From Planctomycetota bacterium (lineage in GTDB: Bacteria > Planctomycetota > Planctomycetia > Planctomycetales > Planctomycetaceae), in the NCBI GenBank assembly GCA_003670925.1, contig QWQG01000172.1, forward strand, positions 1-42,149: DNA of 42,149 nt. The letters are read 5' to 3'. A program made the translations under genes and the position numbers. Shown piece after piece: positions 1,353-33,861 of the stretch (position 1 is its first letter; every line of letters begins with the position of its first letter). Under the pieces are notes generated by a model. That model made no database searches, was not told the origin of the DNA, and was given only the letters and a program-made list of their open reading frames with translations.

Positions 1353-2381
1353 CTAAGCGCGTTCTTCTGGAAATGCTAACACTTCACGAATATGTTCTGA
1401 TTCCGTCGCCACCATCACGAGGCGATCGAATCCAAGGGCAACTCCGGAACATGCAGGCAGGCCAGACTGCATAGCCGCTAGTAATCGAGGTGCACCGGGC
1501 AATTGCTGTGATTTTTCACCGCTCCGTCGTTGATTCTGAACTGCGTCACGGCGACTTAATTCCAGCTCATCTGTGAGTTCTTGGTATCCGTTGCATAATT
1601 CCAAACCTTGTATGTACAGTTCAAAACGCCGCGCCACTGGTGGAGACGTTTTCGACACAACGGCGAGCGCTGCCTGAGCAGGTGGATAGTCGTAGAGAAA
1701 TTCTGGACGAATTCCACCATCATCCGCCATCCCCCCCAATTGAGGCTCAATGGCAAACGCCAGCATGACGTTTAAAATGTCATCGAAATGGTCTTCCCGC
1801 AAATTGCTTGGCAACGGAATATCCAAGCGGCGGGCGTCATCCAAGAGTTGGTGTCCGGAACAATTAAACACATCAATCCCAAACACACGCTGAAATGCGG
1901 TTGCATACGTTGTGTGTTGAAATGTTTTGGAGCTCCAATGATCCGTAACGTTACGACCGGTCACACGAGCGGCCGCCGCCGTTGCCGTTCGCACCAACGA
2001 TTCGGTGACTTCAAGCTGCTCTCGCCAAGTCGAGCCAACACCATACCATTCGATCATCGTGAATTCAGGATTGTGCTGCTTGCCACGTTCCTGCTGTCGG
2101 AACACACGACTGAATTGAAAGATCGACCCAACTCCAGTCGCCAGCAGACGCTTCATATGCGCTTCCGGTGAGGTTTGCAGAAACCATCGCATACCGCGCA
2201 CGTCAATGACAAACGGTTCCAAGCATGCATCAAGGACAATGTCGCGAGAAAGGCACGGTGTCTCGACTTCTAAATAATCACGGTCCCGAAAAAAATCGCG
2301 AATTGCACGTGACATTTCCGCTCGAACATGCAGCATCTGAGTCGCACACGAGGGGCGCCAATCAGCAGACACTGGCGTCAC
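1353..2381 (-). CDS. epmA: EF-P--(R)-beta-lysine ligase EpmA (GenX/PoxA, class II LysRS-like)
   Basis: EpmA is a stand-alone lysyl-tRNA-synthetase-like catalytic domain that attaches (R)-beta-lysine to a lysine of elongation factor P, which eases ribosome stalling at proline runs. The protein is 342 aa (E. coli about 325) and lacks the LysRS anticodon-binding domain. Visible are the EpmA-type N-terminus 'WRPS', 'FLEVETP'-like motif 1 region, motif 2 ('FRQQERG...HNPEFTMIEWY') and motif 3 ('GVALGFDRLVM'). I chose the GTG at 2381. It overlaps the upstream aminotransferase stop as GTGA and has AGGAG 8 nt ahead. A longer in-frame start at 2432 would overlap that gene by 55 nt. A start at the first internal ATG (2336) would lose the conserved WRPS. 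Neither epmB nor efp is in the window, so the exact substrate is inferred. Confidence 0.87.
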   Translation of the reverse strand: MTPVSADWRPSCATQMLHVRAEMSRAIRDFFRDRDYLEVETPCLSRDIVLDACLEPFVIDVRGMRWFLQTSPEAHMKRLLATGVGSIFQFSRVFRQQERGKQHNPEFTMIEWYGVGSTWREQLEVTESLVRTATAAAARVTGRNVTDHWSSKTFQHTTYATAFQRVFGIDVFNCSGHQLLDDARRLDIPLPSNLREDHFDDILNVMLAFAIEPQLGGMADDGGIRPEFLYDYPPAQAALAVVSKTSPPVARRFELYIQGLELCNGYQELTDELELSRRDAVQNQRRSGEKSQQLPGAPRLLAAMQSGLPACSGVALGFDRLVMVATESEHIREVLAFPEERA

Positions 2382-3730
2382 CGCACAGTCTCCTGCGATT
2401 GAGGTTGCTGCGACTGTGTGGCGAGAGCCCAACGAACAGCAGACGCAAGTCGCCGAATACCTTCCTCAATTCCTGCCACATTCTGCACACCAAAACTCAA
2501 TCGCATTTCGCAACGCGGCCGATCCTGCCAGTTGGCGGGATAGCTCAACTCACCAGGCACATACATCACCTTGTCAACTTGGGTTGCGCGGTGAAACAGG
2601 GCACTCGTAAATCCTGTTTCAATATGCCGGGGCAACCGCATCCAAACATACATGCCACCCTGCGGTTTGAACCAAGATACACCGACGAATCCGGCAAATT
2701 CGCGTTCGACCGTCGCCACCATCGCGTCGCGTTTACGGCGATAACTTTCACACACGCTACCGACATGTGCGGCATACTGGCCGGTTTGAATTGCGTGGGC
2801 CACAATATGCTGATTCAAATGTGCCGATCCGAAGTCTTCGTTGCCCTTCAGGTCTGTGACGGCTTTAATCAGACACCGTGGCAAGACGCCCATTCCGACG
2901 CGAATGCCCGGCGAAAAACTCTTTGAAAACGTCTGAGCCAGAATGACCGTTTCCCGCGTCGTGTCGAGCGACCAGATGCTCGGGATCGCTTCGCCGTCAT
3001 AGCGAAGTTCACGATACGCGCAGTCTTCAAGCAAGAAAATGCGGCGATCCGCTGAACGCTCCTGCACAATCTTGAGAAGTTCGGGCCGCCGTGCTGCCGA
3101 GATACTTACGCCCGACGGATTGTCGAAGTCGCTGACCACGTAAACTAGTTTCACCCGGTCCAGCTTGCCCGCTGCTTCAATCTGTGCAAAAGCGGCAGCC
3201 AGTGCATCCGGTCGCATCCCGTTCGCGTCTGCGATCACCGGGACAATTTCTGCGCCGGCAGCCTGAAGCACATCGATGTACACAAAATAGGTCGGCGCAG
3301 CGACAAGGCAGATGTCACCAGGATTGAATAATGCTTGCGTCACGAGTGACAAGAGTTGCTGGGATCCGGTCGTCATGACAAGGTGTGAGAGTGGCAGATC
3401 CTGCAGCTCATCAGTCCGTTGCTCCAGTCTGGCCAGATTTATCCGAAACAACCGTCGAAGTAACTCTGGGCCGGGTGTGATCCCGTACTGCAGCAAGCGC
3501 CGGCCTGCATGGGAGTCCGACAACAAGTCGGCAACCGCCTCACGCACGATTCCCACGGGCAGAGACTCTTCGTCAACCAGCCCAGCGGCGAGCGAAATGC
3601 AGTCGGCGTTTTCAACAGCCTGCTGCATGAGGAAACCAATGGCCTGATCTGCCGACCGCCGTGCGTGCTCGCTAAGAGACGCCTGATCGCCTGCATAAAC
3701 TTGAGCGCCGCGCTGAAATCGCGAATTCAT
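2378..3730 (-). CDS. PLP-dependent aminotransferase, class I/II (LysN/MocR-type catalytic domain)
   Basis: A 450-aa fold-type I aminotransferase without the GntR helix-turn-helix of true MocR regulators. Visible PLP-site elements, numbered from the chosen ATG at 3730, are 'TGSQQLL' (phosphate-binding turn), N204 in 'DFDNPSG', D236 in 'EDCAYRELRY', and the Schiff-base lysine K270 in 'TFSKSFSPGIRVG'. The same segment carries a phosphate-binding arginine. The relatives I know are 2-aminoadipate or other amino/keto-acid transaminases; the substrate cannot be read from sequence. It begins 7 nt after the Lys/Pro-tailed protein and ends in a GTGA overlap with epmA, so the three genes probably form one transcript. 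A longer in-frame start (3781) overlaps the upstream gene and adds no conserved sequence. Confidence 0.82.
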   Translation of the reverse strand: MNSRFQRGAQVYAGDQASLSEHARRSADQAIGFLMQQAVENADCISLAAGLVDEESLPVGIVREAVADLLSDSHAGRRLLQYGITPGPELLRRLFRINLARLEQRTDELQDLPLSHLVMTTGSQQLLSLVTQALFNPGDICLVAAPTYFVYIDVLQAAGAEIVPVIADANGMRPDALAAAFAQIEAAGKLDRVKLVYVVSDFDNPSGVSISAARRPELLKIVQERSADRRIFLLEDCAYRELRYDGEAIPSIWSLDTTRETVILAQTFSKSFSPGIRVGMGVLPRCLIKAVTDLKGNEDFGSAHLNQHIVAHAIQTGQYAAHVGSVCESYRRKRDAMVATVEREFAGFVGVSWFKPQGGMYVWMRLPRHIETGFTSALFHRATQVDKVMYVPGELSYPANWQDRPRCEMRLSFGVQNVAGIEEGIRRLASAVRWALATQSQQPQSQETVR

Positions 3731-3737
3731 GTGAGGT

Positions 3738-4319
3738 CTATTCTCTGGGGCGTGACAACAGTTCCTGAAACTCCAGAGCAAACTGTTCGTCGTTCGAAAG
3801 ACAGCGGTTGTTCATGGCTAAAATCTTGCGAATCCGACCCACGGTTAATTTTGCTGGGCCCGTCAAACGGAGCACCAAGTCATCGGGGTTGAAATGTTCC
3901 AGATCTCGAATCGAATGAATCCCAAGGAACATGAACGCTTCGCGCGCCTGAATGTCGTTTTGAAACACCACGTCCAGCGGTGCGTCAATCGGAATGCGGG
4001 AACGTCCAAGTTTTCGAGATGGATTGTCTTCGTGAATGCCTGAAGAAATGGTTGCTTTTCGAACACCTTTCTTGCGTTGCGCCAGTTCGAGTTCCGGAAC
4101 TGGAATCGGAACCGGCTTTCGAGCAACTGTCACAGGTTTTCGGGCGACCATCAACGGTTTCCGAGCAATGGGAGCCTTTTGGGGGGCAAGTTTCTTTGGA
4201 ACAGGCTTCTTTTTCGCCACGGTCTTTGGGGATTTTTGTGCTACTTTCGCCACGCGGGAGGCTGCTTTCGCTGGCTTTACAGGCTTGGCCGCTTTTTTGA
4301 CTACCTTTTTCTTTGCCAT
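3738..4319 (-). CDS. Histone-H1-like Lys/Ala/Pro tail fused to an alphaCTD-like helix-hairpin-helix domain
   Basis: A 193-aa protein in two parts. Residues 1 to about 85 are a strongly basic Lys/Ala/Pro tail with three spaced 'ARKP' units ('ARKPLMV', 'ARKPVTV', 'ARKPVPI'), resembling bacterial H1/Hc-like tails. The rest (about 110-185) has the pattern 'AREAFMFLGIHSIRDLEHFNPDDLV' followed by a second helix ending 'VGRIRKIL'. This resembles the paired helix-hairpin-helix of the RNA polymerase alpha C-terminal domain. The likely role is DNA binding in the nucleoid, inferred from composition and fold pattern only. The start at ATG 4319 has AGGA about 9 nt ahead; a longer frame to 4355 has no better signal. 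It is the first gene of the aminotransferase-epmA cluster. Confidence 0.62.
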   Translation of the reverse strand: MAKKKVVKKAAKPVKPAKAASRVAKVAQKSPKTVAKKKPVPKKLAPQKAPIARKPLMVARKPVTVARKPVPIPVPELELAQRKKGVRKATISSGIHEDNPSRKLGRSRIPIDAPLDVVFQNDIQAREAFMFLGIHSIRDLEHFNPDDLVLRLTGPAKLTVGRIRKILAMNNRCLSNDEQFALEFQELLSRPRE

Positions 4320-4439
4320 GGGTCCAGTTCCTTTTCCGCTGTGCAAGCTCAACAATCGTCGAATCCCGACGAAGTCTCATGCCCCGCAAACGGTATTCTC
4401 GATCTCAATTCCACTATCATAGCGGCTGAGGGCCTTGAC

Positions 4440-5063
4440 TTACCCTAACAGACCCGGTTGTTCCTCAAAAAAGAAGCGAAGGATATCTTGTTCCTCCTCA
4501 GTGAGCAGTCCAGTGGAGCCTAGAATGACGTCACCAGAGGCTCTCCAACATCCGACAACGTTCAACAATTCTGCCATCGGGTCCAACGCTTCGGTTGCTG
4601 GAAATGCTGCTGATACGGGGGGCTGATCGTCTATTTTTTTTCCCAGTCGTACCAATTCGCTTGCCATTTTTTGATCCTGCGTCAGTTGCAACACACGCAC
4701 TTTTGATGTCAACCAATGATCACGGGCTGTGGTCATCAATTTGGGGCCATTCCAGACACTACACAGGGCCGAACATGTCGTTAACTCTCCCATCTTCGCC
4801 AGAGCCTCACACGCCGCATGGATTACGCCGTGGTCAAATGGCGTCAGTGATTTATCAATTTCCTGGAGATGTCCCCAGGTCAGCAGGAGGCATTCCAGTT
4901 GAATCTGGGGGGCTGTTCCATGAAGAAGCGGATAGACATCCAAAAATCCACCGGGCTGAGCAATCGGATGCTGTTCACCCAGAGAATCTCGCAACATGCA
5001 ATCCATTGTCAGGACAAACGCCGTTCGGAAGGCGGCGTAATGAATTTCATTAGTAAGCTCCAT
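4440..5063 (-). CDS. Hypothetical protein, helical, cytoplasmic
   Basis: I do not recognise this family. From ATG 5063 it is 207 aa; the frame stays open to a TTG at 5135 (231 aa), so the start is uncertain. It has no signal peptide or membrane segment. It appears mostly helical and acidic, with short Leu-rich stretches ('ECLLLTWGHL', 'AELLNVVGCW') and a very acidic C-terminus ('LLTEEEQDILRFFFEEQ'). It lies in a minus-strand row between the 540-aa hypothetical (5213-6835) and the histone-tail-like gene. There is no contextual clue beyond co-orientation. Open across the full length with no competing gene opposite, it is probably a real, lineage-restricted protein. Confidence 0.5.
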   Translation of the reverse strand: MELTNEIHYAAFRTAFVLTMDCMLRDSLGEQHPIAQPGGFLDVYPLLHGTAPQIQLECLLLTWGHLQEIDKSLTPFDHGVIHAACEALAKMGELTTCSALCSVWNGPKLMTTARDHWLTSKVRVLQLTQDQKMASELVRLGKKIDDQPPVSAAFPATEALDPMAELLNVVGCWRASGDVILGSTGLLTEEEQDILRFFFEEQPGLLG

Positions 5064-5158
5064 TGAGGTGTCCGATGTGCTAAAGGATCGCGGCAGAAGA
5101 AGCGTTGATCCTGACACAAAATCAAGCAGACTCAAGCCGCATTTCCGCTAAATTGAAC

Positions 5159-5183
5159 CGTTGCATGTAACCGAAATGCAACG
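5159..5183 (-). terminator. Candidate terminator hairpin after the 540-aa gene
   Basis: A perfect 8-bp stem (CGTTGCAT / ATGCAACG, 5159-5166 and 5176-5183) with a 9-nt loop sits about 30 nt past the stop of the gene ending at 5213. Only a weak T-rich stretch follows on the minus strand, so termination is uncertain. Confidence 0.35.
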
Positions 5184-5212
5184 AATCCGAGCAATCCATT
5201 TGGATTTTCCCC

Positions 5213-6835
5213 TCAGGACTCGCGCTCGTTTGGCACGACAATCACCTGCCACTCGGTTTGCTTCTGCACGATCGAACGCGATTCTTTGGTATCAACAAAC
5301 ACCACTACTGCCGCCGGCGGCAACTTGTGCAACTGTATATTACCCACGAGTCGCCATTCACGCTCATCCTCTGTCCAGCCATCACCCGACCCGACATTCT
5401 GAAAAAATGGACGTGCACCTTCAGGCGTCGTCTGCCATGTTTCTTCGTTGCCATATTCAACCGGACGGGCACCCGCAAGCGCCAGCAGATCACGGCGAAT
5501 ACCGATGCCCCATGGTTCAAAGTCATAACGTCGACGATGTTTTCGATATGCCCTTCGACGGCGAAAATCATGCAGCGGAACCTCAGTAAATGAGACCACT
5601 TCGAAGCCGCCACGGATTGTTTCTGACGAGGCCCATAAATGTCCCTCAGTGACGATTCGCAACAGTGTTGCAAGTACGGATCGATCAGACGAACGGCACT
5701 TTAAAATGAGTTCGTCATGGAATTCCTGTTCATCCTGATGAGGCCACGGACCGACTGTCGAGCGAGTCCAGTGCAGAAGCCACGCATCCGGATCCGTTAA
5801 CAGCGTTGAAACCGCCGATGAGTCCTCCGCAGTGGGTGTGCAACCTAGTGTGCCACCTGATGCCTGACCGTCCTTGATGCTGCTCGGGAAATGATTGTGA
5901 GGAGTAACCTCAATGCTTGAGGATTTAAGGAGCCACGGAATCAAGCAGTCATGCGTTTCCAGTTCAATCGCAGGTATCTGTCCGTCCGCATCAGATGCCA
6001 GCATCACAAGCGAATTGCACCTTTCCGAATCCTGTACATGCTGCATCAGCAATGCTTGTACCGCGCCGCCACGCCGGGCACGCAGCACTTGCAAACGCTC
6101 GCCCGCCGCGAACAAAATTCGATCAGCAATTGGCTGCTTGCTCCATTGCCGTATCTGGCCGGGAAGTGCGTCTGACTTCGCAGAATTGTCGGGCAGCGTT
6201 ATTCGAGGCGAAACAAAGACAGACCAGTGCGTTCCAGCAGCGTAGCCTTCGACGGCCGGGGGGTGCGAGACCATATCCTCTTCAGGGATGGCTGATGAGT
6301 CCCTCACCACACAATTTCCCGTTTCAGCCAGCCATGCGACAATGTCAGCGTCCGTGCCGGGTAGATCCCGCGCGTCCACTTGAAATTCCAGCAAAGATCG
6401 TCCAAAAATCTCGGCCGCGCGACGCACAAATCGGTGTGCTGCAGTGCCTGTAACAGCACACAAAATATCGGATGTCGGATGACTGCGCAGTGTCGCCGTA
6501 CGAAGGAGATCGAACCACCACGATTCTTCATCCAAGCGTTGCTTCAACCTTGAGGAAATAAGGGAAACTCTGTGCCCCCCCGGAATTCCTTGCGGCCAGA
6601 AGAACAAGCGTGGGGCCAGCCAGCGGAGCGAACAATCTGCTGATAACCAAGGTAATCCGAGTGACACTGTCGGCCCGACCGAACCGCGGCTAAATTTGGC
6701 GTTCGACTGCAGGTCTTTATCGAAGAGCAACCAGCGCCAGTGGTCTGACTCTGGAATACCTTCACTCAGACGCTGAAATCGCAAGATGGCCGCTGCGAAC
6801 GCCCTTAAGTTCTCAGTATTCGGCAGGTCGATCAT
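5213..6835 (-). CDS. Hypothetical 540-aa protein with an AbiGi/DUF2971-like C-terminal motif
   Basis: I cannot name this family with confidence. The protein is soluble, with no signal peptide or membrane segment, and is Trp/Arg-rich. The C-terminal third contains 'VVSFTEVPLHDF', then an Arg/Tyr-rich stretch, 'FEPWGIGI' and 'GARPVEYG'. This spacing (FTE-x-PL ... GIG ... PV-x-Y) is reminiscent of DUF2971 and AbiGi-type proteins. The match is by eye and weak. ATG 6835 was chosen because GGAG lies about 8 nt ahead (CGGAGTGAGCACG); the frame also extends to a TTG abutting the plsY stop. The gene is 18 nt downstream of plsY and is probably the last gene of that transcript. Confidence 0.6.
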   Translation of the reverse strand: MIDLPNTENLRAFAAAILRFQRLSEGIPESDHWRWLLFDKDLQSNAKFSRGSVGPTVSLGLPWLSADCSLRWLAPRLFFWPQGIPGGHRVSLISSRLKQRLDEESWWFDLLRTATLRSHPTSDILCAVTGTAAHRFVRRAAEIFGRSLLEFQVDARDLPGTDADIVAWLAETGNCVVRDSSAIPEEDMVSHPPAVEGYAAGTHWSVFVSPRITLPDNSAKSDALPGQIRQWSKQPIADRILFAAGERLQVLRARRGGAVQALLMQHVQDSERCNSLVMLASDADGQIPAIELETHDCLIPWLLKSSSIEVTPHNHFPSSIKDGQASGGTLGCTPTAEDSSAVSTLLTDPDAWLLHWTRSTVGPWPHQDEQEFHDELILKCRSSDRSVLATLLRIVTEGHLWASSETIRGGFEVVSFTEVPLHDFRRRRAYRKHRRRYDFEPWGIGIRRDLLALAGARPVEYGNEETWQTTPEGARPFFQNVGSGDGWTEDEREWRLVGNIQLHKLPPAAVVVFVDTKESRSIVQKQTEWQVIVVPNERES

Positions 6836-6853
6836 CGTGCTCACTCCGCACAA

Positions 6854-7510
6854 TCAGGTTTTTTTCTCGATTTCCGATCCCACTTTCATCTTCTGTTCGT
6901 CGCCACGCAGCATCCGAAGAATGTTGGATCGATGCTTCCACACAATTAACGCAGGAACCATCGTAGAAAACAGTGTCAACGGCAGTTGGCCAATCAAAAA
7001 CACGTCTTGCCCCATGAATGTCAACTGCGTTATCGCAAAGCAGATGACCGACACAATCGAAGCGAGTCCGACGATTCTTAACGTGCCAAACACAATCAGA
7101 AACGTTGCTAATGCAACTCCGGATGCGAGCGGTGCGATGACTAAGATGACGCCCAATGCCGTGGCAACCCCTTTTCCGCCACGCAGTTTCAACCATATCG
7201 GGTACATGTGGCCGACGATACAGCTGATACCCGCCAGAATCGCCCCCAGATTCACTAGCTCCTCACTGCCCCGCCCCTGCAGACAAACTTTGGTGGCAAG
7301 AGTCGGCAACAGTCCCTTAATGGCGTCCAAAAAGAGCACAACGAAGCCCCACTTCCAGCCCAATAATCTAGCAACATTGGTCGCGCCGATGTTGCCGCTG
7401 CCGTGTTTCCGAATATCATCTTTGAGGAGCACGCGGCCCAAGAGATACCCAAACGGAATTCCACCCACAAGGAATGCAATCACACAGAACGCACTAATCA
7501 CAAAATCCAT
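6854..7510 (-). CDS. plsY: Glycerol-3-phosphate acyltransferase PlsY
   Basis: PlsY transfers an acyl group from acyl-phosphate to sn-glycerol 3-phosphate in the membrane, the first step of phospholipid synthesis. The 218-aa protein shows the family motifs in order: 'GSGNIGATN' (G3P/acyl-phosphate site), 'GHMYPIWLKLRGGKGVAT' with the catalytic-loop glycines, and 'KHRSNILRMLRGDE' near the C-terminus. It has five or so hydrophobic helices. ATG 7510 was preferred to the longer frame start at 7528 because it matches the usual hydrophobic N-terminus. The partner gene plsX is not in the window. Neighbours are an M19 dipeptidase upstream (about 115 nt gap) and the 540-aa hypothetical downstream. Confidence 0.95.
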   Translation of the reverse strand: MDFVISAFCVIAFLVGGIPFGYLLGRVLLKDDIRKHGSGNIGATNVARLLGWKWGFVVLFLDAIKGLLPTLATKVCLQGRGSEELVNLGAILAGISCIVGHMYPIWLKLRGGKGVATALGVILVIAPLASGVALATFLIVFGTLRIVGLASIVSVICFAITQLTFMGQDVFLIGQLPLTLFSTMVPALIVWKHRSNILRMLRGDEQKMKVGSEIEKKT

Positions 7511-16004: not shown

Positions 16005-17432
16005 ATGAGACTCCGCATCAGAACTTTGCTGCTGACGGTCGCTCTTTTGTGCTCCCTGACATCGACTGGCCGTGCTGGCATCTACTGCCCAATCCTGAAT
16101 CCGTTTTACTGGCTGTTCGGCGGTTGCGGTGGCTACGGCGGTGGAGACTATGGCTCCATGAACACTGGCCACAACTACGGTCATGGTCCCAATCCTTATG
16201 GTGTCAGCCGCTGTATTGATGACTGGCTCGGCTATGGCTATTTACGAAATCAAGAGGGAACCCTCGGGCATTATCCAGGTCGTCCGTTTTCGTGCTACAA
16301 CCCCGCCTTCCCGTGTCTGCTGAATCCGTGCTCTTGGTTTGCCTCCTGCCCCCTGTTCGCGCCCTCGGGACCGGCTTGCGGCTGGACATCTCCGATGGTG
16401 GCACCGCTCGCTCCCCAAATGCAGATGCCTTACCAAGCGCAGTGGCAAAATCAGGGACAGATGCCGCAGCCAAGCATGCTGAATCCTTACGATGGAAACT
16501 GCAATGATCCTTGCGGGTCACAATGCATGCCGCAGCCAATGATGCAGTATCAACCAGCCCAGATGCCGGTACCGACATGGCGTCCAATGACCGTCGACCG
16601 GGGCCATTGGCGTTGGCAAAGAGTCTGGGTTCCTCGTCCCCAGACCATGCTGGTTCCGCAAATGCAGTACGCCATGTCGCCACAAGCCATGCCGATGTTT
16701 CCGGATTCCATGATGCAGTCCGGCTGTGGTGATGATTGCGGCAGTGAATGCGGCTGCGGCGGAGACATGGCAAACATGCTGCCGGGTTCCGAGTACATGC
16801 CGGGAACTGAGATGATGCATGGAAACAGTTACCCGAACGTGAATTCAGGTTCAGGCTGCTGTGGCTCGGAGAGTGGACTTCCGCAATCGCGATCCGAGGC
16901 TGGTTTCCCTGTCCTGCCACAGAGCACCATGTTAATGTCGCCGAGGTCCATGCCGATGTCTGGGATGACGATGGGACAGCCGCCCAACATAGCGCCATAC
17001 ACTTCGATGAGTCGCTGGTACGCGCATCCTAGTTACTCGACCGCGGGAAACAATCTGAGCTACCGCCACGCACTGACGCAGCGTCCAGCTTACGGAAGCG
17101 GTATGTACCATCAGCCTTCATCTCGTCAGTTCGCCTACAACTCGGCAAGGATGTCTATGCCTCAAGCGACTGGTTGGCAGACTGTTCAGACGATGCCCCA
17201 ACAATTCCCAGGCATGCGGTCTCAACGAACCATGTCCCCGCAGATCGGCAGTCCAGTTTACGCTCACCCGATGGTTGCGGGAGACATCCACGGCGACCAC
17301 GAGTGGGGCGGACCAACCGCTGTACCAGTCGTCCTGAATTCGTTCAACGGACGGCCTCCCATTCAGCAAGCATCTTGGTCGCAGCCGACGCGAACCACAA
17401 GTACTCGACGGTATCCAAATTCCGTGCAGTGA
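16005..17432 (+). CDS. Secreted Met/Cys/Pro/Gln-rich low-complexity protein
   Basis: A 475-aa protein with a signal peptide (basic 'MRLRIR', hydrophobic 'TLLLTVALLCSLTS', likely cut near GRAG). The mature part opens with 'IYCPILNPFYWLFGG', then becomes low-complexity. It is very rich in Met, Pro, Gln and Gly, with cysteine clusters ('NCNDPCGSQC', 'SGCGDDCGSECGCGGD', 'GSGCCGSE') and a 'GHWRWQRVWVPRPQ' segment. No enzyme domain is seen. Exported Cys/Pro-rich proteins are typical of planctomycete envelopes; a disulfide-linked wall component or a metal-binding protein (many Met and Cys) are both possible. GAGGA sits 7 nt before the ATG. An intrinsic terminator follows 66 nt after the stop. Confidence 0.72.
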   Translation: MRLRIRTLLLTVALLCSLTSTGRAGIYCPILNPFYWLFGGCGGYGGGDYGSMNTGHNYGHGPNPYGVSRCIDDWLGYGYLRNQEGTLGHYPGRPFSCYNPAFPCLLNPCSWFASCPLFAPSGPACGWTSPMVAPLAPQMQMPYQAQWQNQGQMPQPSMLNPYDGNCNDPCGSQCMPQPMMQYQPAQMPVPTWRPMTVDRGHWRWQRVWVPRPQTMLVPQMQYAMSPQAMPMFPDSMMQSGCGDDCGSECGCGGDMANMLPGSEYMPGTEMMHGNSYPNVNSGSGCCGSESGLPQSRSEAGFPVLPQSTMLMSPRSMPMSGMTMGQPPNIAPYTSMSRWYAHPSYSTAGNNLSYRHALTQRPAYGSGMYHQPSSRQFAYNSARMSMPQATGWQTVQTMPQQFPGMRSQRTMSPQIGSPVYAHPMVAGDIHGDHEWGGPTAVPVVLNSFNGRPPIQQASWSQPTRTTSTRRYPNSVQ

Positions 17433-20425: not shown

Positions 20426-22126
20426 TTACGCCGGGTATGCTTCCAGAGCTTCCTGACCTTTACGAGTGCAGAAATCGCCAAAGGATTCAGGGCCTTTGCG
20501 GTCAGTCTTATAAGCTATGAGCAGGGGCACCAGTGTCGGCACGATGTCTTCCATCGGCAGCATATCCTTGTAGATAAATCCGAGGCGAGTGCCTTCGGGG
20601 TTGCCACCGAGGAACATCGTGTATTTGCCCACGGCCTTGCCCACGAGCCCAATATCTGGGGTATAAGGCCGAGCGCACCCATTTGGGCATCCTGTCATGT
20701 GCACGGCAATTTTATCAGACTGCATGCCGAGCCGTGCAATTTCTTGATCGAGGTCATCAATAATCCCCGGCAGTGCGCGCTCGGCTTCGGTAATCGATAA
20801 GCCACAAGTCGGAAAGGCGGGACAAGCGATGGCGTAGCGTCGTAACAGCGATAATTCTTCGGCATTCTTCATGCCGTGCTCAGCCATGATGCGATTGATT
20901 TCAGCCTTATCATGCGGATCAATGTTGCACAGAATGACGCTCTGCAACGCTGTCAGCCGCGTCTCCATCCCGAATCGCCGCAGCAGGACTCGGAGGCCAG
21001 TTTTGATTTGTAATGTGCCTTCGTCCTTAATTCGGCCGTTCTCGATGTTGACACCCAAAAATAATTTCCCATCTCCCTGTTCGTGCCAGCCAATGTGATC
21101 ATCGACGCCAGTGACCTCCGCCGGATGTGGATCAGGCAGTCCCTTGCCGTAATATTGTTCGACCATCGCCCGGAATTTCGGAACTCCCCAGTCGGCGATC
21201 AAATATTTCAATCTCGCAATCTTACGGTCCTCGCGATTTCCGAAGTCCCGTTGCACCTTCACCACGGCTTCGCTGACCGCCACGACCTGATCCGCCGCTG
21301 CGTACGCAATCCGATGAGCCAGGGCAGGGAACGTTTTTTCGGCGCTCGGTGTGCGGCCCATACCTCCACCAGCGAGGACATTGTAGCCTACGATCGATCC
21401 ATCTTCGACGATCGCCATCAAGCCAAGATCCTGTGTGTACAAGTCAACGCAGTTGTCTTCTGGCAGAGCTATCCCCATCTTGAATTTGCGGGGTAAGTAA
21501 CGAACACCATAAATCGGCTCTTCGACAGGTTTGAATTCGGTCGTATCGACTTCTTCGCCATTTTCATCTTTCAGCCACAGGTCATAGTAGGCTCTAGTGC
21601 GTGGCTTAAAGTGTTCGGCCAACTCCTGTGATAATGCCTGCATTTGTTCGTAAACTTTGGTCTTGTACGGAGCCGGACAGGCCATCACATTCCGATTGAC
21701 GTCTCCACAGGCAGCCAGCGTTGTAAGCTTTGATTCGTTGATGGCACGAATGGCCTCCCGCAGATCGCCTTTCAACACGCCATGCAACTGGAATCCTTGG
21801 CGACTGGTGATTCGCAATGTGCCATTGGCCAGTTTTTCACACAAATCCAACTCGGCCAAGAATTGAGCCGCAGTGACTCTCCCACCCGGGATCCGCGTCC
21901 GTACCATGCACGAGTAATGCTTGCCTAAGAGTTTGCCGTCTGTGCCCTTCGCCTTTCGAGTATCACGATCATCCTGCAGATACGAACCGTGATGTTTCAA
22001 CAGCGTGGCTGCATCGTCCGAAAACTCGGGCTTGTCATTCTGGATTTCTTCGCCGAGTGTGCCGCGCAACTGGTGAGACGCGGCTTTGAGCAGTTCAACT
22101 TTGCTGAGTTTTTGTTCTGCAGACAT
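20426..22126 (-). CDS. Assimilatory sulfite reductase hemoprotein (siroheme/4Fe-4S; nitrite/sulfite reductase family)
   Basis: A 566-aa siroheme enzyme that reduces sulfite to sulfide with six electrons. Two homologous halves are visible. Motifs include 'LRITSRQGFQLHGV', 'GDVNRNVMACPAP', and the cluster/siroheme cysteines C435 and C441 ('CPAFPTC') and about C480 and C484 ('GCPNGC'). After the last pair, 'ARPYTPDIGLVGKAVGKY' and 'LGGNPEGTRLG' are more like sulfite than nitrite reductase. Electron donor (ferredoxin or CysJ) is not encoded nearby. ATG 22126 ('MSAEQKLSK') fits family N-termini; the frame runs open to 22450 but that 108-residue stretch is unlike any sulfite reductase. It is divergent from the 1156-aa gene across a 266-nt gap. 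Confidence 0.9.
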   Translation of the reverse strand: MSAEQKLSKVELLKAASHQLRGTLGEEIQNDKPEFSDDAATLLKHHGSYLQDDRDTRKAKGTDGKLLGKHYSCMVRTRIPGGRVTAAQFLAELDLCEKLANGTLRITSRQGFQLHGVLKGDLREAIRAINESKLTTLAACGDVNRNVMACPAPYKTKVYEQMQALSQELAEHFKPRTRAYYDLWLKDENGEEVDTTEFKPVEEPIYGVRYLPRKFKMGIALPEDNCVDLYTQDLGLMAIVEDGSIVGYNVLAGGGMGRTPSAEKTFPALAHRIAYAAADQVVAVSEAVVKVQRDFGNREDRKIARLKYLIADWGVPKFRAMVEQYYGKGLPDPHPAEVTGVDDHIGWHEQGDGKLFLGVNIENGRIKDEGTLQIKTGLRVLLRRFGMETRLTALQSVILCNIDPHDKAEINRIMAEHGMKNAEELSLLRRYAIACPAFPTCGLSITEAERALPGIIDDLDQEIARLGMQSDKIAVHMTGCPNGCARPYTPDIGLVGKAVGKYTMFLGGNPEGTRLGFIYKDMLPMEDIVPTLVPLLIAYKTDRKGPESFGDFCTRKGQEALEAYPA

Positions 22127-22195
22127 CTGAATGCGGTTCCGGTACACAAAAATAAGGGGAAATCTGAGCCCGTAATCTGACACCACTAGCGTTCG

Positions 22196-22201
22196 AGTAT
22201 A
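22196..22201 (-). promoter_or_regulatory. Possible -10 box of the sulfite reductase gene
   Basis: TATACT on the minus strand, about 70 nt upstream of ATG 22126. Only a poor -35 match lies at the right distance, so this is tentative. The 266-nt gap must also carry the promoter of the rightward gene, which I could not locate. Confidence 0.3.
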
Positions 22202-22392
22202 AGACGAGTCGTTTTCCTTGAACAGCCGTGCGGAGGTGAACGTTCTCGACAGACGGAAATCAGCCTGCACCTGAGAAAATTCCGGTTCAGCAGATTCACA
22301 GCGAATGCCACGATGTGCTGAAATCCGTGCACTTGTGTCAACCGACGGAAAGGTTTGCACTGTGTTTAGGAAGCTACGTGGGGTGTAACGCA

Positions 22393-25300
22393 ATGTCTTG
22401 GCGCGATCTGGAAGAATCCATTGGTTTCGTAGTCCAACAGTCCGGAGCACAGAAAAAGGAATCTCGAGACAGCATTACCCGCTACATCGTGCTCAAGCTG
22501 ATTGCAAACGGGCTACCGATTCCGAAGTGCTTCGAGGACCACGACCGGCTCGGCGCGCCACGGTTGCTTAGCACCTACCACCATCGACTCAAGCGACTCG
22601 ATTCGATCCACTGCCCTGTGGACGCGCGCATCGAGGCGTTTCTGCGGCGATACTTCGATCGGGTCAAGGGGTGCAGCGGGTTACGGCTACCGGACCTGAC
22701 GGTGATTCTGGACCGACATGGAATCGCACGTGAGTTGTCACTCCCGCACAATGGCGACGAGTATCAGAACGAATTTGGCGCATCTTATCGTGTCCGAAAC
22801 GGGGTCCTGCACAATCCGGCAAATGATCGCCGCACGACTGAAGGCACGTTCCACATTACCGAAGGTGGCTTGCCAATTCCCCGTGACAAAAAAGTCGTTC
22901 CAAAAGCCACATTCGCGGCGCTCTTTAGACACGCGATGAATCCACCTGACAGCCTGTTGCAATTGCCATTTACGCATTCCGAAGCCAATCCAGCCAGTGC
23001 TTTTGTCTCGTTACTCATTCGCCCAATTCTGTGTCCTGAAGTCGCAGGCTATTGTCCGCAGCAGTCGATGGAGATTCGCCTCTTCGTCCCAGGAGCACTG
23101 GTCAGTAATCTGGACTTTGTCGAATCCATTTTTGGCAACGCAGGCGATCCCTTTCTACCGGCTCACGATGCGGCTCTGGATGTAGAGCAATGGAGCGGGC
23201 ATACGGGCTGTGTAATTCTGGCTCCGCATCTGGTCGGAGTTACCAAAAAAGATGTTGGTCTGCCGTCGCATGAAGAAGCCAGCGAGCGTCAGCGGGAAGA
23301 CGGCATGTGCTGGAAATCTGAAGATGAGAAGTACAACGATGGTGTTCCGTTTAAGCTAACCTGTCGCGACGAAGAGGGCGTAATTGTCACGTTGATTGCC
23401 GATAATTATTACGGTTACTGTAAGAAGGAAGTCAAGACTCAACTCAGTTATGCGGCCAATCTTGGCGGGCAGGTCGAGGAAGAACATGCGGGGGGGGCGA
23501 TGGCGTTTGCCAGTTTTAATCTGGGCGAGGAATTCTCGGCGGACAGCAGACGCTACAACAATCGGACATTTGCGGATGTTGCTCGGGATTATGCAGCAAT
23601 TATGCATGTGCAGCCAGAAGGCTACGCGATCGATGCCACACATCCGAACGTGATTTATGTCGCTGAAAATGCACGCTTCACCGTCGCCGATCAGCGGATT
23701 ACGTGGCATTCCAGCAGCGGCATGCATAGCATCCCACTGCGTCTTGGCTACATTTATATCACCCCCTCCGGCTACAAAGTACGGTTGGAGAAGCACCCCG
23801 CGGCACCATCTTGGCGACTCATCGGAACATTGTTCGAAGGTGTTCTTTGTCACAAACCCTGTACTGTGAGCGGTGGTGGCAAAAGTGAAATCAGCAAGTC
23901 GATTGCTGACTATCTCCTGCACGGCCCAGTCTTTGTAGCCGATGCCGAAAATGATCTGAATCTGATTCAGCAGATCTTCGATCGCAATTATGCCGATCGC
24001 TGGAACGCCACTGGAAGTGTGCAACCGGATTATGTGAAGAAGGCAACTCGCAAGGTCCTCGAGAGTACCAGATCGCTCGGCAGCGTCATTAAGCTGCTGA
24101 CACCATCTAGCGACTACACTGACGCATACAACGAATGGCTGGAACAGATTCCTGATCATATCTACGCGATCGTGTTTATCATTAAACGGATGCACACCGG
24201 TGCTCCGGACGAATGGCGGCGGCATTTTTCCGTAGACATAGTGAATGGTCATCCTGGCCATGAACTCAAATATGGCGACCGAAAATTGGTTGGCACATAC
24301 TTGCGGGTCGGGTTATTTGGCGAAAGCACGTGGAGGACTTACAAGTTGCGTCAGGACTTTGCGCCGGCTCAAAAAGTTCAGACAGAAGATGACATCACCG
24401 CGTCGGTAATCGTCCCCCGCCGCGCGCTGCAGTATTTGGGAAATGTGGTGACGGAAGAAACCAGTTACAAGTTTGTCCAAAACTGTGAATATCGGCTCTT
24501 CCAACGTCCCGATGATGCCGTGCATCGCGGTCTCGATAAGCAGACGGAAGCCGATCTTGCGAGGTCGGACAACTTCATTGTTAACTTTGAACCCTTGTCG
24601 CGAAAACGTGTCGACGAGATCTGCGACCGCCCTGTCGATTTGAGCCAGTTTACAAACCCGATGCAGCATCTGCTCCACGAAATGCAGCAGGCCGACGATA
24701 GCTACGTTGTGTGTTCCAATACACCGCGAATGGTGAATGGCGAACCGAGTCGCAATCCCCGATACCTGCAACCTCGACCGAGCCTGATTGATCCTGTGAA
24801 TCAGTATGTCGGTGAGATGGGAATTCGGCTTTCCCGCGCGGTCCCGGTCGATAAAGCTGTACACACTCCGGTGCAAGCAATCCTGATCGGCCGCCGCAAT
24901 AATCCGCCTGAACCTGCGCGAGGAATCCGCGCCCTGTCAGTCTACAATCCAATTCACTATCAGGAGTTGCCCGAACTTTTCATGGATTTTGTGAGTGCGC
25001 TCACAGGCAAAAGTCCCTCTACAACCGGTGCCGGCAGTGAAGGTGCGTTGACGAAAGGACCCTTCAATTGTTTGCGTCCGATCACCGATTTGAACAACGC
25101 TCTTGTGAGCTACATTCTTACGGGGCTGGCGGGATTTTCGACGCCGGCTGGACACATTGGCAGTCGCGTCCGCGTCGATCATGATATCAGCCTGCTGATT
25201 CCGGAAATCTGGTGTCGCCTGAGTCCTCAAGAGAGGTCTCCGGAATTCCTGATTGCTGAACAATTACTGGAAAAGATGGAAGACTATGAATTTGGTGCTA

Positions 25301-25863
25301 GGTTAATTCCGGCCAGTCGACTTGGCTGGCGGATCTCCACACGCTTTATTCGCCGATTCGCTGGACGCGTATTCGACAATCCAAATAGAGTCTTCGATAG
25401 CGAAATTTTACAGCCGGAAACTCAGGACCCAGCAACGTTTGCCGATGGGATTCTGTATATTGCCGAAGCACAAAAGCGGGTTGCCAAGATGTACTTTGAG
25501 GACGGATCAATCGAAATCGCCTGCCCGCCGTTGAAGGCGCTGCTTCATATTATGGTCGATGGTGAATTTGAAAAAAAATCGATTCGTGACGCAGAGATCC
25601 GGAAACTGTTTACGAAAGAATCTTTGCTCGCATCTGACTGGTACATGGATCGGCTGCGTCTGCGGCAGTTGCGCGAACAGCAGTTGTGGCAACGACACGT
25701 CCAGTCACTCGAGACATTTTTCAACAGCAATGAGTTCCCTGATGAAAAAATCAGTATGAACATCTTGGGGCGACTGGAAAAATCCCGTCAGCAATTGAAT
25801 ACCGTGTTGTCAGCCCAGTATTTGGTGGACTTGCAGGGAACACTCGGAGCCGACCAATTGTGA
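22393..25863 (+). CDS. Candidate PPi-type phosphoenolpyruvate carboxykinase (very large, 1156 aa)
   Basis: This enzyme type interconverts PEP + CO2 + Pi and oxaloacetate + PPi, so it uses pyrophosphate in place of ATP or GTP. Size is the first clue: PPi-PEPCKs are about 1100-1200 aa, roughly twice ATP- or GTP-PEPCK. Second, residues 493-503 read 'SGGGKSEISKS', a P-loop-like element where other PEPCKs have their kinase-1a loop. Third, a highly conserved-looking block at about 870-892 ('LTGKSPSTTGAGSEGALTKG') fits my memory of the family. The protein is soluble, with no signal peptide. ATG 22393 ('MSWRDLEES') was preferred to the frame start at 22315, which lies in the divergent promoter region. 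The gene is monocistronic. If the assignment is wrong, it is a large conserved protein of unknown function. Confidence 0.55.
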   Translation: MSWRDLEESIGFVVQQSGAQKKESRDSITRYIVLKLIANGLPIPKCFEDHDRLGAPRLLSTYHHRLKRLDSIHCPVDARIEAFLRRYFDRVKGCSGLRLPDLTVILDRHGIARELSLPHNGDEYQNEFGASYRVRNGVLHNPANDRRTTEGTFHITEGGLPIPRDKKVVPKATFAALFRHAMNPPDSLLQLPFTHSEANPASAFVSLLIRPILCPEVAGYCPQQSMEIRLFVPGALVSNLDFVESIFGNAGDPFLPAHDAALDVEQWSGHTGCVILAPHLVGVTKKDVGLPSHEEASERQREDGMCWKSEDEKYNDGVPFKLTCRDEEGVIVTLIADNYYGYCKKEVKTQLSYAANLGGQVEEEHAGGAMAFASFNLGEEFSADSRRYNNRTFADVARDYAAIMHVQPEGYAIDATHPNVIYVAENARFTVADQRITWHSSSGMHSIPLRLGYIYITPSGYKVRLEKHPAAPSWRLIGTLFEGVLCHKPCTVSGGGKSEISKSIADYLLHGPVFVADAENDLNLIQQIFDRNYADRWNATGSVQPDYVKKATRKVLESTRSLGSVIKLLTPSSDYTDAYNEWLEQIPDHIYAIVFIIKRMHTGAPDEWRRHFSVDIVNGHPGHELKYGDRKLVGTYLRVGLFGESTWRTYKLRQDFAPAQKVQTEDDITASVIVPRRALQYLGNVVTEETSYKFVQNCEYRLFQRPDDAVHRGLDKQTEADLARSDNFIVNFEPLSRKRVDEICDRPVDLSQFTNPMQHLLHEMQQADDSYVVCSNTPRMVNGEPSRNPRYLQPRPSLIDPVNQYVGEMGIRLSRAVPVDKAVHTPVQAILIGRRNNPPEPARGIRALSVYNPIHYQELPELFMDFVSALTGKSPSTTGAGSEGALTKGPFNCLRPITDLNNALVSYILTGLAGFSTPAGHIGSRVRVDHDISLLIPEIWCRLSPQERSPEFLIAEQLLEKMEDYEFGARLIPASRLGWRISTRFIRRFAGRVFDNPNRVFDSEILQPETQDPATFADGILYIAEAQKRVAKMYFEDGSIEIACPPLKALLHIMVDGEFEKKSIRDAEIRKLFTKESLLASDWYMDRLRLRQLREQQLWQRHVQSLETFFNSNEFPDEKISMNILGRLEKSRQQLNTVLSAQYLVDLQGTLGADQL
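23490..23497 (+). repeat. G8 homopolymer inside the 1156-aa gene
   Basis: Eight consecutive G within the codons for His-Ala-Gly-Gly-Ala. A one-base slip would truncate the protein early. A second G8 lies in the S1 gene (13406-13413), and runs of eight and nine G lie in spacers at 1080 and 34008. Confidence 0.9.
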
Positions 25864-29899: not shown

Positions 29900-29970
29900 T
29901 CGGGGACGGCACCATGGTGCTGGATCACGTCGCTCCGATTTGCCTCAACCACTTCACAACACGAATTCGC

Positions 29971-32900
29971 ATGATTTCTCACCGACCTGACATCCGGAAC
30001 CTACTTGAAGAACGCATTTTGATCATCGACGGCTCAATGGGAGCCCTGATCATGTCCAATAACCCGGACGAAGCCGGTTATCGAGGCGTGCGTTTTAAAA
30101 ATCATACGGTTGATATTAGAAACGCCACCGACCTGCTTGTGCTGACTCAGCCAAAGATGATCAGCGACATTCATCACCAGTATCTGGATGCAGGCGCTGA
30201 CATCATTGAAACAGACACGTTCAACGCGAACCTCGTGTCCATGGAAGAGTTTCAGTTATCGCACCTCACGCATGAAATCAACAAAGTGGGGGCTGAACTG
30301 GCTCGTGCAGTGGCCGACAAAGAGACCGCACGCAATCCCAATAAGCCGCGTTACGTCGCCGGAAGCATCGGGCCCACGAAGGTGCAGTTATCGATGAACG
30401 CCGACAAACCCGGCAGTCGCCCTTTTCAATTTGACCAGATGGTCGAATCCTACGCCGTGCAAATCCGAGGACTGATGGACGGCGGTTGCGACTTGTTGCT
30501 GCCGGAAACGAGCTTCGATACGCTAAACATGAAGGCCTGTTTGTTTGCCATTTCACAGGTGTTCGGTGAACAGGGACGGGAGATTCCCGTCATGATTTCC
30601 GGCACAGTGTTCACGGGCGGCGTGACGCTGCTGGGCCAGTCAGTAGAAGCCTTCTATGCGGCAGTGGAACATTTCCCTGCCCTCAGCGTGGGCTTTAATT
30701 GCGCGCTAGGCCCGAAGCAAATTAAGCCCTACCTAGAAACCCTCTCGAAATTAGCAACAACCTACGTCAGTTGCTATCCAAACGCCGGCATGCCAGACGG
30801 TATGGGTGGATTCGACACGAACGCCAGCGACTTTGCCGAAATCGTGCGATCACTAGCAAAATCCGGACTGTTGAATATTGTCGGCGGCTGTTGTGGCACA
30901 ACACCTGAATACATCAGGGCTGTGGCGGAGGCGGTGAAAGGCATCAAGCCTCGCAAAATCCCGCAGGGTAACGGTTGGTCTACCTATTCTGGATTCGATT
31001 ATTTAGCGCTGCGACCAGAATCGAATTTTATGAACGTCGGCGAGCGCACCAACGTCGCGGGTTCACGAAAATTTCTGAGACTGGTACGTGAAGACAAGTT
31101 TGACGAAGCTGTCAGCATCGCGCGCGATCAGGTCGAAGGTGGCGCTCAGGTGATCGATGTGAATATGGACGAAGGCCTGTTGGATGGGCCGCGTTGCATG
31201 GAGAAATTCCTGTGGCTTCTGCACGATGATAACATTCGCGTGCCCATCATGATTGACAGTTCTGACTGGAAAGTCCTTGAGGCAGGGCTGAAGTGCGTTC
31301 ATGGGAAGAGCATCGTTAACAGTATCAGCTTGAAAGAAGGCGAGGCCGAATTCCTGCACCGCGCGAAACTCGTCCGGCGTTATGGAGCAGCCGTGATCGT
31401 GATGGCGTTTGACGAAACAGGTCAAGCCGCCACTTGCGAAGAAAAGGTGCGGATCTGCAAACGGGCGTACAAGTTGTTGACCGAAAAGGTTGGCTTCCCG
31501 CCCACGGATATCATCTTCGATGCCAACATTCTGACGGTTGGTACAGGCATGGAGGAACACGCCAACTACGCAGTCGAATTCATCGAGGCCGTGCGCCGTA
31601 TTAAGCAAGAATGCCCCGGTGCGAAGACGTCCGGTGGCGTCAGTAACGTATCGTTCTCGTTTCGCGGGAACGATGTCGTACGAGAAGCGATGAACGCGGC
31701 TTTTCTGTATCACGCGATTCAGGCGGGGCTCGACATGGGCATCGTCAATCCGCAGCAATTGGAGGTATATGACGAGATTGATAAAGAGTTATTGGTCTAC
31801 ATTGAAGATGTGTTATTGAATCGTCGAACAGATGCCACGGAACGGATGGTTGATTACTCCGAGAGAGTCAAAGCTAAAGCTAGTGGTAAAGACAAGGTTG
31901 AAGAATGGCGTGCCGGCACCGTTGAACAGCGTCTCCAGCATGCACTCCTGAAAGGGATCACGGATTACATCGACGGCGATACCGAGGAAGCTCGCATAAA
32001 ATATGGGCGCCCGCTGGACATCATTCAAGGGCCGTTAATGGACGGCATGAACATCGTCGGTGAACTGTTCGGTGCCGGTAAAATGTTTTTACCTCAAGTT
32101 GTTAAGTCTGCACGCGTTATGAAGAAGTCTGTCGCGTGGCTTGAACCATTCATGGAAGCTGAAAAGGCCGCAAAGGTCAACGGGCGACTCGAACAATTTA
32201 CAGACATTGGTCTGTTCACCGGCACTCGCGATGAGGCGGTCGCGTTGGCCGCAGCAGCGGAACTGCTGGCCGATCCGAATGCCGTTGCAAGTAGCACCCG
32301 AGGCACATTTCTAATCGCAACGGTGAAAGGTGACGTGCACGACATTGGCAAAAACATCGTGGCTGTCGTCTTGCGATGTAATAATTTTAAGGTGATTGAC
32401 CTCGGCGTAATGGTGCCGTGTGAAAGAATCCTAGAAGAGGCCATTAAACATCAAGTCGATATCATTGGACTGAGTGGCCTCATCACGCCATCGCTGGAGG
32501 AGATGATCACTGTCGCACGCACAATGAAAGAGCAGGGGTTTAGTGTACCGCTTCTCATCGGAGGCGCCACAACCAGCGCGAAGCACACGGCAGTCAAGAT
32601 TGCACCAGCCTACGATCAACCGGTGGTGCATGTGGGCGATGCGTCTTTGTCGGTTGGGGTGGTCGAAGCATTGCTGGATGCCGATCGCAAGCCAGCGTTC
32701 GTGGTCAAGAATCTGGAAGCACAGGTCAAAGCGAAGGCTTCGTTTGATCAGCGTCAGCAGATCAGCTTGATGCCGTATGCGGATGCGTTGGCAAAGCGGT
32801 TCACAATCGATTGGGCCAACTACGTTCCACCAAAGCCCGAGTTCTTGGGGACTCGGATCATTGCAGACCTGCCGTTGGAAGAACTGCTCCCGTACATCGA

Positions 32901-33861
32901 CTGGTCGCCGTTCTTCAGTTCATGGCAACTGATCGGCAAATATCCAAAAATCCTTGATGATGCGGTGGTTGGTGAAGAAGCTCGCAAGCTGTTCGCTGAC
33001 GCTCAGGATGAGTTAAGGGGACTTCTCGGGAATAAAAGTATCAAGGCCCGCGGCGTCTATGGATTCTGGCCGGCGAATTCTGACGGCGATGACATCGTGT
33101 TGTGGACTGATGAAACACGGATGCAGGAACTCATGCGATTCCCCATGCTGCGGCAACAATGGGAACGCGTTGGACAGAAAGACTTTCGCTCGCTAGCGGA
33201 TTACGTGGCACCAAAAGGTGGCGGGCATGCTCTGCGTGATAAACCTTCCCCAACGTCCGCGCACACATCATCGCCCTTAGATTTTCAAAAACATCCCTCG
33301 GAACTCGTCACACGGGATGATGACAGCTACGTTGATTACATCGGGGGCTTTGCGGTCACGGCTGGTGAAGGCTGTGACGAACTTGCCAAATCCATTGAAG
33401 CCGCGGGTGATGATTATCGAGCCATCATGATCAAGGCGCTTGCAGATCGCTGTGCAGAAGCGTTCGCTGAATACCTACATGCGAAAGTTCGCCGCGAGTG
33501 GGGTTATGGTCGAACTGAAAATCTGACCAGTGCCCAACTGATTGAAGAAGAGTACGACGGCATTCGTCCGGCATTTGGATATCCATCGTGTCCTGACCAT
33601 CTTCCAAAGGGTCCGCTCTGGAAATTGCTGGACGCGGAGAAAGCCACAGGCATGACTCTGACCAGTAGTTTCGCCATGTGGCCAGCGGCTTCGGTCAGTG
33701 GGCTTTATTTCAGCCTTCCCACACGTTTGCTCCCCGGCTCCCGTTATTTTAGTGTGGATCGCATCACTAAGGACCAAGTTAAAAACTACGCCGCTCGCAT
33801 GAACATGACTGTCAAGGAGATTGAACGCTGGCTGGCACCCAATCTTGGGTACAATCCGTAG
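29971..33861 (+). CDS. metH: Cobalamin-dependent methionine synthase MetH
   Basis: MetH methylates homocysteine using methyl-tetrahydrofolate through methylcobalamin. The 1296-aa protein (E. coli 1227) keeps all four modules. The homocysteine domain has zinc ligands C244 ('NCALGP') and C307/C308 ('[11 protein letters not shown]'). The pterin domain begins near '[16 protein letters not shown]'. The cobalamin domain has H790 in 'DVHDIGKN' and '[12 protein letters not shown]'. The C-terminal activation domain includes '[15 protein letters not shown]' and '[15 protein letters not shown]'. Extra length is mostly a low-complexity insert in the activation domain (about 1085-1120). ATG 29971 ('MISHRPDI') was preferred to the frame start at 29914. 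It needs B12 and SAM-based reactivation; no B12 synthesis genes are in the window. Confidence 0.96.

Follow-up and report, generated by a model that had tools for sequence, protein, structure and literature searches.

Does a very long open reading frame (ORF) on a planctomycete contig encode a carboxykinase that works with pyrophosphate (PPi) instead of a nucleotide, and in which direction would such an enzyme run? The question is raised by a 42,149-nucleotide stretch of a Planctomycetota bacterium (assembly GCA_003670925.1, contig QWQG01000172.1, positions 1 to 42,149), here called the window. The original prediction, made from the letters alone, placed a giant 1156-aa protein at 22393..25863 (+) and suggested that it was a PPi-type phosphoenolpyruvate (PEP) carboxykinase (PPi-PEPCK). 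Translation confirmed that the open frame is real: it is a single frame from ATG to TGA, with 1156 amino acids and one terminal stop. The gene was annotated as a PPi-type PEP carboxykinase gene (EC 4.1.1.38 by homology) on the basis of this translation, matches to the PDB entries 6K31 and 8E1U, and 115 other aligned sequences.

The family was assigned by a sequence search of the PDB with phmmer. Two entries matched the protein over nearly its whole length: 6K31, deposited as AiPEPCK (1117 bits, query residues 29-1153, E = 0), and 8E1U, deposited as a PPi-dependent PEPCK (1065 bits, query residues 26-1153, E = 0). The remaining seven rows all had E >= 0.36, and nothing in the search assigned the protein to an unrelated family. 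We take the source organisms of 6K31 and 8E1U to be Actinomyces israelii and Propionibacterium freudenreichii, respectively. With 6K31, 547 of 1097 query residues were identical (about 50%), counted over three piecewise alignments with 202 (query 29-382), 173 (419-798), and 172 (791-1153) identities; 8 residues are shared by two of the pieces, and no piece covers residues 1-28, 383-418, or 1154-1156. The 1156 residues also fit the range of about 1100-1200 aa for PPi-PEPCK, the two solved members having 1153 and 1131. Short length differences separate the window protein from both solved enzymes, and it comes from a planctomycete and is known here from its sequence.

Pfam and NCBIfam scans of the longest form of the frame (1182 aa) found no family at E <= 0.001, and this includes the nucleotide-dependent families ATP-PEPCK (PF01293) and GTP-PEPCK (PF00821). 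The consulted text of a 2020 review states that no InterPro family has been described for PPi-PEPCK, which would explain the empty scans (PMC8100219). Annotation based on these collections can thus miss the enzyme and wrongly report a genome as being without PEPCK. Overall, the gene product is very probably a PPi-type PEP carboxykinase (PEP carboxytransphosphorylase), a statement that concerns its identity and not its direction. We infer its activity from this homology; as a single gene, it is an ordinary addition to a known family.

Chance was rejected as the source of the frame, since composition alone gives 1156 stop-free codons a probability of about 2e-23, and open stretches in 200 shuffled versions of the gene reached 225 codons at most. 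The GC fractions at codon positions 1, 2, and 3 were 0.596, 0.410, and 0.565. Relatives were collected by a contig search that confirmed at least 582 coding stretches, of which the best 80 were kept as named relatives. A mechanical ORF can also begin at an upstream GTG (22315), which gives the 1182-aa frame. The ATG at 22393 was preferred because the alignment started at residue 6 or earlier in 52 of these best 80 relatives and because the nearest one, L037, has an in-frame stop 6 codons 5' of the same Met.

The two sequence elements named in the original prediction were both found as placed. The first, GGGKSEISKS at codons 494-503 (23872..23901, +), is predicted to be a P-loop-like phosphate-binding loop; the second, the block near 870-892, is GKSPSTTGAGSEGALTKGPFN at codons 872-892 (25006..25068, +), a family signature block. 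TVSGGGKSEISKS is identical in 6K31 and 8E1U, and residues 872-892 are nearly identical. Conservation was examined in an alignment of 116 rows, made of 30 loci from sampled genomes (the window's own included), the 80 named relatives, and 6 more distant sequences. The 115 other rows were 48.6-91.0% identical to the window protein, and 171 of the 1156 positions were invariant, gaps set aside. Y339, G341, K344, K345, H365, G494-S498, D521, and R560 were the same in 116/116 rows, and GGGKSE (494-499) was invariant. Most, but not all, residues of the signature block were invariant, with S876, T877, T878, E883, and K888 the same in all 115 rows covering them. No internal stop was present in any of the 116 rows as translated over the matched regions, the TGA of L024 being a terminal one.

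Two further elements are candidates for the active site. Y-x-G-x-x-K-K at codons 339-345 (23407..23427, +) is the proposed counterpart of the substrate/metal lysine motif YxGxxKK of ATP-PEPCK, a pattern that was invariant in 6/6 ATP-PEPCK rows too. The invariant His at codon 365 (23485..23487, +) is a proposed metal ligand, judged by the order of the motifs. D517 was also considered as a metal ligand and was rejected because it is not conserved (D in 83, N in 23, and E in 9 of 116 rows), whereas D521 is. ATP-PEPCK and PPi-PEPCK carry out the same kind of reaction. In our proposal, the core of ATP-PEPCK has its counterpart in the series Y-x-G-x-x-K-K, H, P-loop, D, T-R, and the P-loop of the window protein is preceded by about 110 additional residues. 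The P-loop and the YxGxxKK segment would stand in the same order in ATP-PEPCK, also in the copy that the source genome carries on contig C137, although that enzyme is less than half the size of the window protein (the family model has 465 positions) and gives no profile match to it. When 44 PPi-PEPCK rows were compared with the 6 ATP-PEPCK rows in hhalign, residues 491-509 alone were paired (19 columns, 37% identity, probability 4.2%); since only the P-loop was seen, the motif correspondence stays a proposal.

The direction of the reaction was considered in the setting of the genome, an assembly of 259 contigs with a completeness of 99.51% and a contamination of 0.98, where enzymes were sought by family search. 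The window gene was the single PPi-PEPCK match. The original prediction had asked which other PEPCKs and phosphofructokinases (PFKs) accompany it. ATP-PEPCK was present on C137 (698.7 bits, above the cut-offs of the pckA models TIGR00224 and PRK09344.1-2); neither GTP-PEPCK (PF00821) nor PEP carboxylase was matched anywhere in the genome. Matches were also obtained for pyruvate carboxylase, pyruvate kinase, pyruvate phosphate dikinase (PPDK), membrane pyrophosphatase, and soluble pyrophosphatase. PFK was matched on three contigs: C97, with a full ORF containing GGDG and KTIDND, and C79 and C50, with fragments at contig ends, the C79 fragment carrying GGDD and KTIDND. GGDD and K-TIDND are, we assume, marks of PPi-PFK. 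The top NCBIfam model for both fragments was PPi-PFK, with scores far below the cut-off of 550 bits; its lead was narrow for C79 (164.9 bits versus 161.1 for the ATP-PFK subfamily model) and wide for C50 (147.3 versus 96.6 bits). A PPi-PFK is therefore best described as probable in this genome. The proteins of the C79 and C50 fragments (L131 and L133) are nearly alike where they overlap, and the contig ends share no exact overlap; the fragments may come from one gene that is split and varies between strains, or from two copies.

The distribution of the gene was determined in 392 planctomycete genomes, the window's own included. Fifty-five matched and 54 were kept; G163 was dropped as a weak, broken match (E = 2.3e-4, seven internal stops). 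The enzyme type had been described as rare, and at 54/392 it is not very rare in Planctomycetota. Sequences were aligned from 36 of the 54 genomes. A strong ATP-PEPCK match (E below 1e-200) accompanied PPi-PEPCK in 22/54, GTP-PEPCK in 15/54, both in 0/54, and neither in 17/54. Weaker PF01293 matches, with E from 5.8e-4 to 6.8e-56, were seen in 4/54: G004, G051, and G354, which belong to the 17, and G036, which has GTP-PEPCK. Because a number of these 17 assemblies are incomplete, the absence of a nucleotide PEPCK in them is weak evidence. For six of the 17 (G024, G137, G194, G028, G040, and G064), completeness is listed as 90% or more and contamination as 5% or less, and a weaker ATP-PEPCK match is absent as well; G024 is one contig. 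Genomes in which PPi-PEPCK appears to be the sole PEPCK would let PPi-driven metabolism be tested directly in bacteria. Membrane pyrophosphatase was found by family search in 359/392 genomes and, thus, does not single out the owners of PPi-PEPCK.

By homology, the enzyme would catalyze PEP + CO2 + Pi <-> oxaloacetate + PPi with a divalent metal, and the PEPCK-like core (YxGxxKK, H, P-loop, D, TR) would transfer the phosphoryl group with PPi replacing the nucleotide. We lean toward a mainly PEP-carboxylating role, in which oxaloacetate would be topped up and the phosphate bond of PEP saved as PPi for possible use by the membrane pyrophosphatase or the probable PPi-PFK. This role is favored because ATP-PEPCK and pyruvate carboxylase are present and PEP carboxylase was not detected in the family search. 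Several points weigh against this explanation of enzyme and role. ATP-PEPCK is also in the genome, so the PEP/oxaloacetate node need not depend on PPi; the soluble pyrophosphatase would use up PPi; the case for PPi-PFK depends on the assumed marker residues and on two fragments at contig ends; and sequence profiles show no significant link between PPi-PEPCK and ATP-PEPCK.

The original prediction had assumed the opposite direction, with PPi from biosynthesis driving the node. This part of it stands as one of two possible directions, and without a detectable PEP carboxylase, the PPi-making direction is at least as likely as the PPi-driven one. If the same enzyme worked mainly as a decarboxylase, waste biosynthetic PPi would turn oxaloacetate into PEP for gluconeogenesis, an alternative that we consider quite plausible, if short of an even chance. 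According to the part of the review consulted, the reaction is near equilibrium (oxaloacetate + PPi -> PEP, +3.9 +/- 6.2 kJ/mol), so its direction follows concentrations (PMC8100219). The available text on a methanotroph with this class of PEPCK describes extracts that formed PEP from malate, which its authors took as reversibility (PMC6860931). PPi-PEPCK may also be the sole PEPCK in the 17 of 54 genomes where a strong ATP-PEPCK match and a GTP-PEPCK match are both missing. The genome that contains the window, however, has an ATP-PEPCK that can already make PEP, as well as PPDK, and its soluble and membrane pyrophosphatases compete for PPi.

A wholly PPi-based PEP/oxaloacetate step has been described for Entamoeba histolytica in the same review (PMC8100219). 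Tentatively, and with more doubt than belief, PPi-PEPCK could be the sole PEPCK in part of Planctomycetota, where this step would depend wholly on PPi, and could act as a PPi-producing PEP carboxylase in the window's lineage, in which no PEP carboxylase was detected.

Another alternative is that the protein is a homologue whose PPi reaction was lost or changed, so that it uses nucleotides, is regulatory, or is inactive. About half of its residues differ from 6K31, and sequence alone cannot give substrate choice with certainty. This is nonetheless improbable: all checked candidate catalytic residues except D517 are invariant in the 115 or 116 rows covering them, TVSGGGKSEISKS is unchanged in both solved enzymes, and the nucleotide PEPCK families are unmatched by the protein.

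The relatives bear on whether the gene belongs to a planctomycete at all. By record title, the best 80 of the at least 582 stretches comprised 51 from Planctomycetota, 24 from Pseudomonadota, two titled only "bacterium," and one each from Ignavibacteriota, Acidobacteriota, and Hydrogenedentota. A quick tree was made from 112 of the 116 rows, with four partial rows left out and several long branches flagged. The tree places the window protein together with L037 and L038, within rows from planctomycetes that are mostly Planctomycetaceae. The fragmentation of the assembly into 259 contigs would allow a contaminant or chimeric contig carrying a foreign gene, but this is very improbable given the completeness and contamination values, the position of the protein in the tree, and the adjoining nuo genes, which match two close relatives at 92-98%. 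Finally, a superficial resemblance to some other large protein family, which the silence of all Pfam and NCBIfam models might suggest, can be dismissed as having a negligible chance in view of the nearly end-to-end matches of more than 1000 bits to two PPi-PEPCKs and the missing InterPro family reported in the consulted text (PMC8100219).

Recent transfer from Proteobacteria was unsupported, since all 24 proteobacterial rows fall into a single group (SH-like approximate likelihood ratio, SH-aLRT, 100) that does not contain the window protein. The taxa of 19 of these 24 rows (between L082 and L116, among the best 80 of at least 582) are, as we understand them, sulfur oxidizers. A PPi-making PEPCK in those proteobacteria could feed ATP sulfurylase run in reverse. 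L037 is titled Candidatus Kuenenia stuttgartiensis; its protein is 91% identical to that of the window and its nuo stretch 92-97% identical, and this is probably a Planctomycetaceae bin recorded under a wrong name.

The occurrence of PPi-PEPCK in planctomycetes was already known from a listing for three Rosistilla strains, in the portion consulted of which PPi-type PEPCK (EC 4.1.1.38) has its own locus tags (CA51_45950, Mal33_31650, and Poly24_48970) beside ATP-PEPCK, PEP carboxylase, and PPi-PFK (PMC7716947). Compared by listing and not by sequence, these strains resemble the window's genome in phylum and in having ATP-PEPCK and PPi-PFK alongside; they differ in PEP carboxylase, which is listed there and was not found here by family search. 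In the consulted tables of three other reports, the 4.1.1.38 row repeats the locus tags of the gpmI row, an apparent table slip that makes them weak evidence alone (PMC7716862, PMC7716917, PMC7716918). At the level of sequence, the present analysis confirms that a planctomycete has a step of central metabolism linked to PPi, and it supplies the frequency of the gene in the sample.

The neighborhood of the gene was as the original prediction described it for the window. A divergent ORF at 20426..22450 (-), outside the PPi-PEPCK system, encodes an assimilatory sulfite reductase (NF010029, 743.7 bits, cut-off 457). Because residue 106 is the first that the family match covers, translation probably starts near 22135, which would leave about 250 bp between the divergent genes. 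A glycolytic gene was said to be lacking nearby, and this held for the eight large ORFs checked: of the seven besides PPi-PEPCK, six had family matches, none glycolytic, and one was unmatched. Twelve other window genes were then sought in 110 PEPCK loci and L137. Beyond the window's own stretch (L001), sulfite reductase stood beside PPi-PEPCK only in L038, a close relative, where nuo genes lie on the opposite side of PPi-PEPCK. Misses carry little weight in the 30 whole-genome loci, whose flanks do not exceed 1.5 kb, and on several of the named contigs, which are short. When flank ORFs of at least 100 aa from the 80 named loci were clustered, no neighbor family occurred in more than 8 loci. 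Gene order therefore gave no support for a connection of PPi-PEPCK with the PPi that sulfate activation releases, as sulfite reductase recurs in L038 only.

Other neighbors were observed as well. In L008-L010, L015, L016, and L018-L021, PPi-PEPCK has a metH-like match about 300 bases away, which the locus end truncates (47-49% over about 400 aa), and this neighbor was present in 9/9 genomes of genus g3 that bear PPi-PEPCK in the phylum sample. The window's own metH (29914-33861) is 4 kb downstream of PPi-PEPCK. In L123 (genome G279), PPi-PEPCK (1819-5268, +) and GTP-PEPCK (5317-7158, -) are direct, convergent neighbors whose stop codons are separated by 48 bases. Family f14 has 20 genomes with PPi-PEPCK, of which none had an ATP-PEPCK match, 12 had GTP-PEPCK, and 8 had neither. 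Elsewhere in the window, a 475-aa ORF at 16005-17432 (+) matched neither Pfam nor NCBIfam families at E <= 0.001 and is glycine-rich near its start, after an apparent signal peptide.

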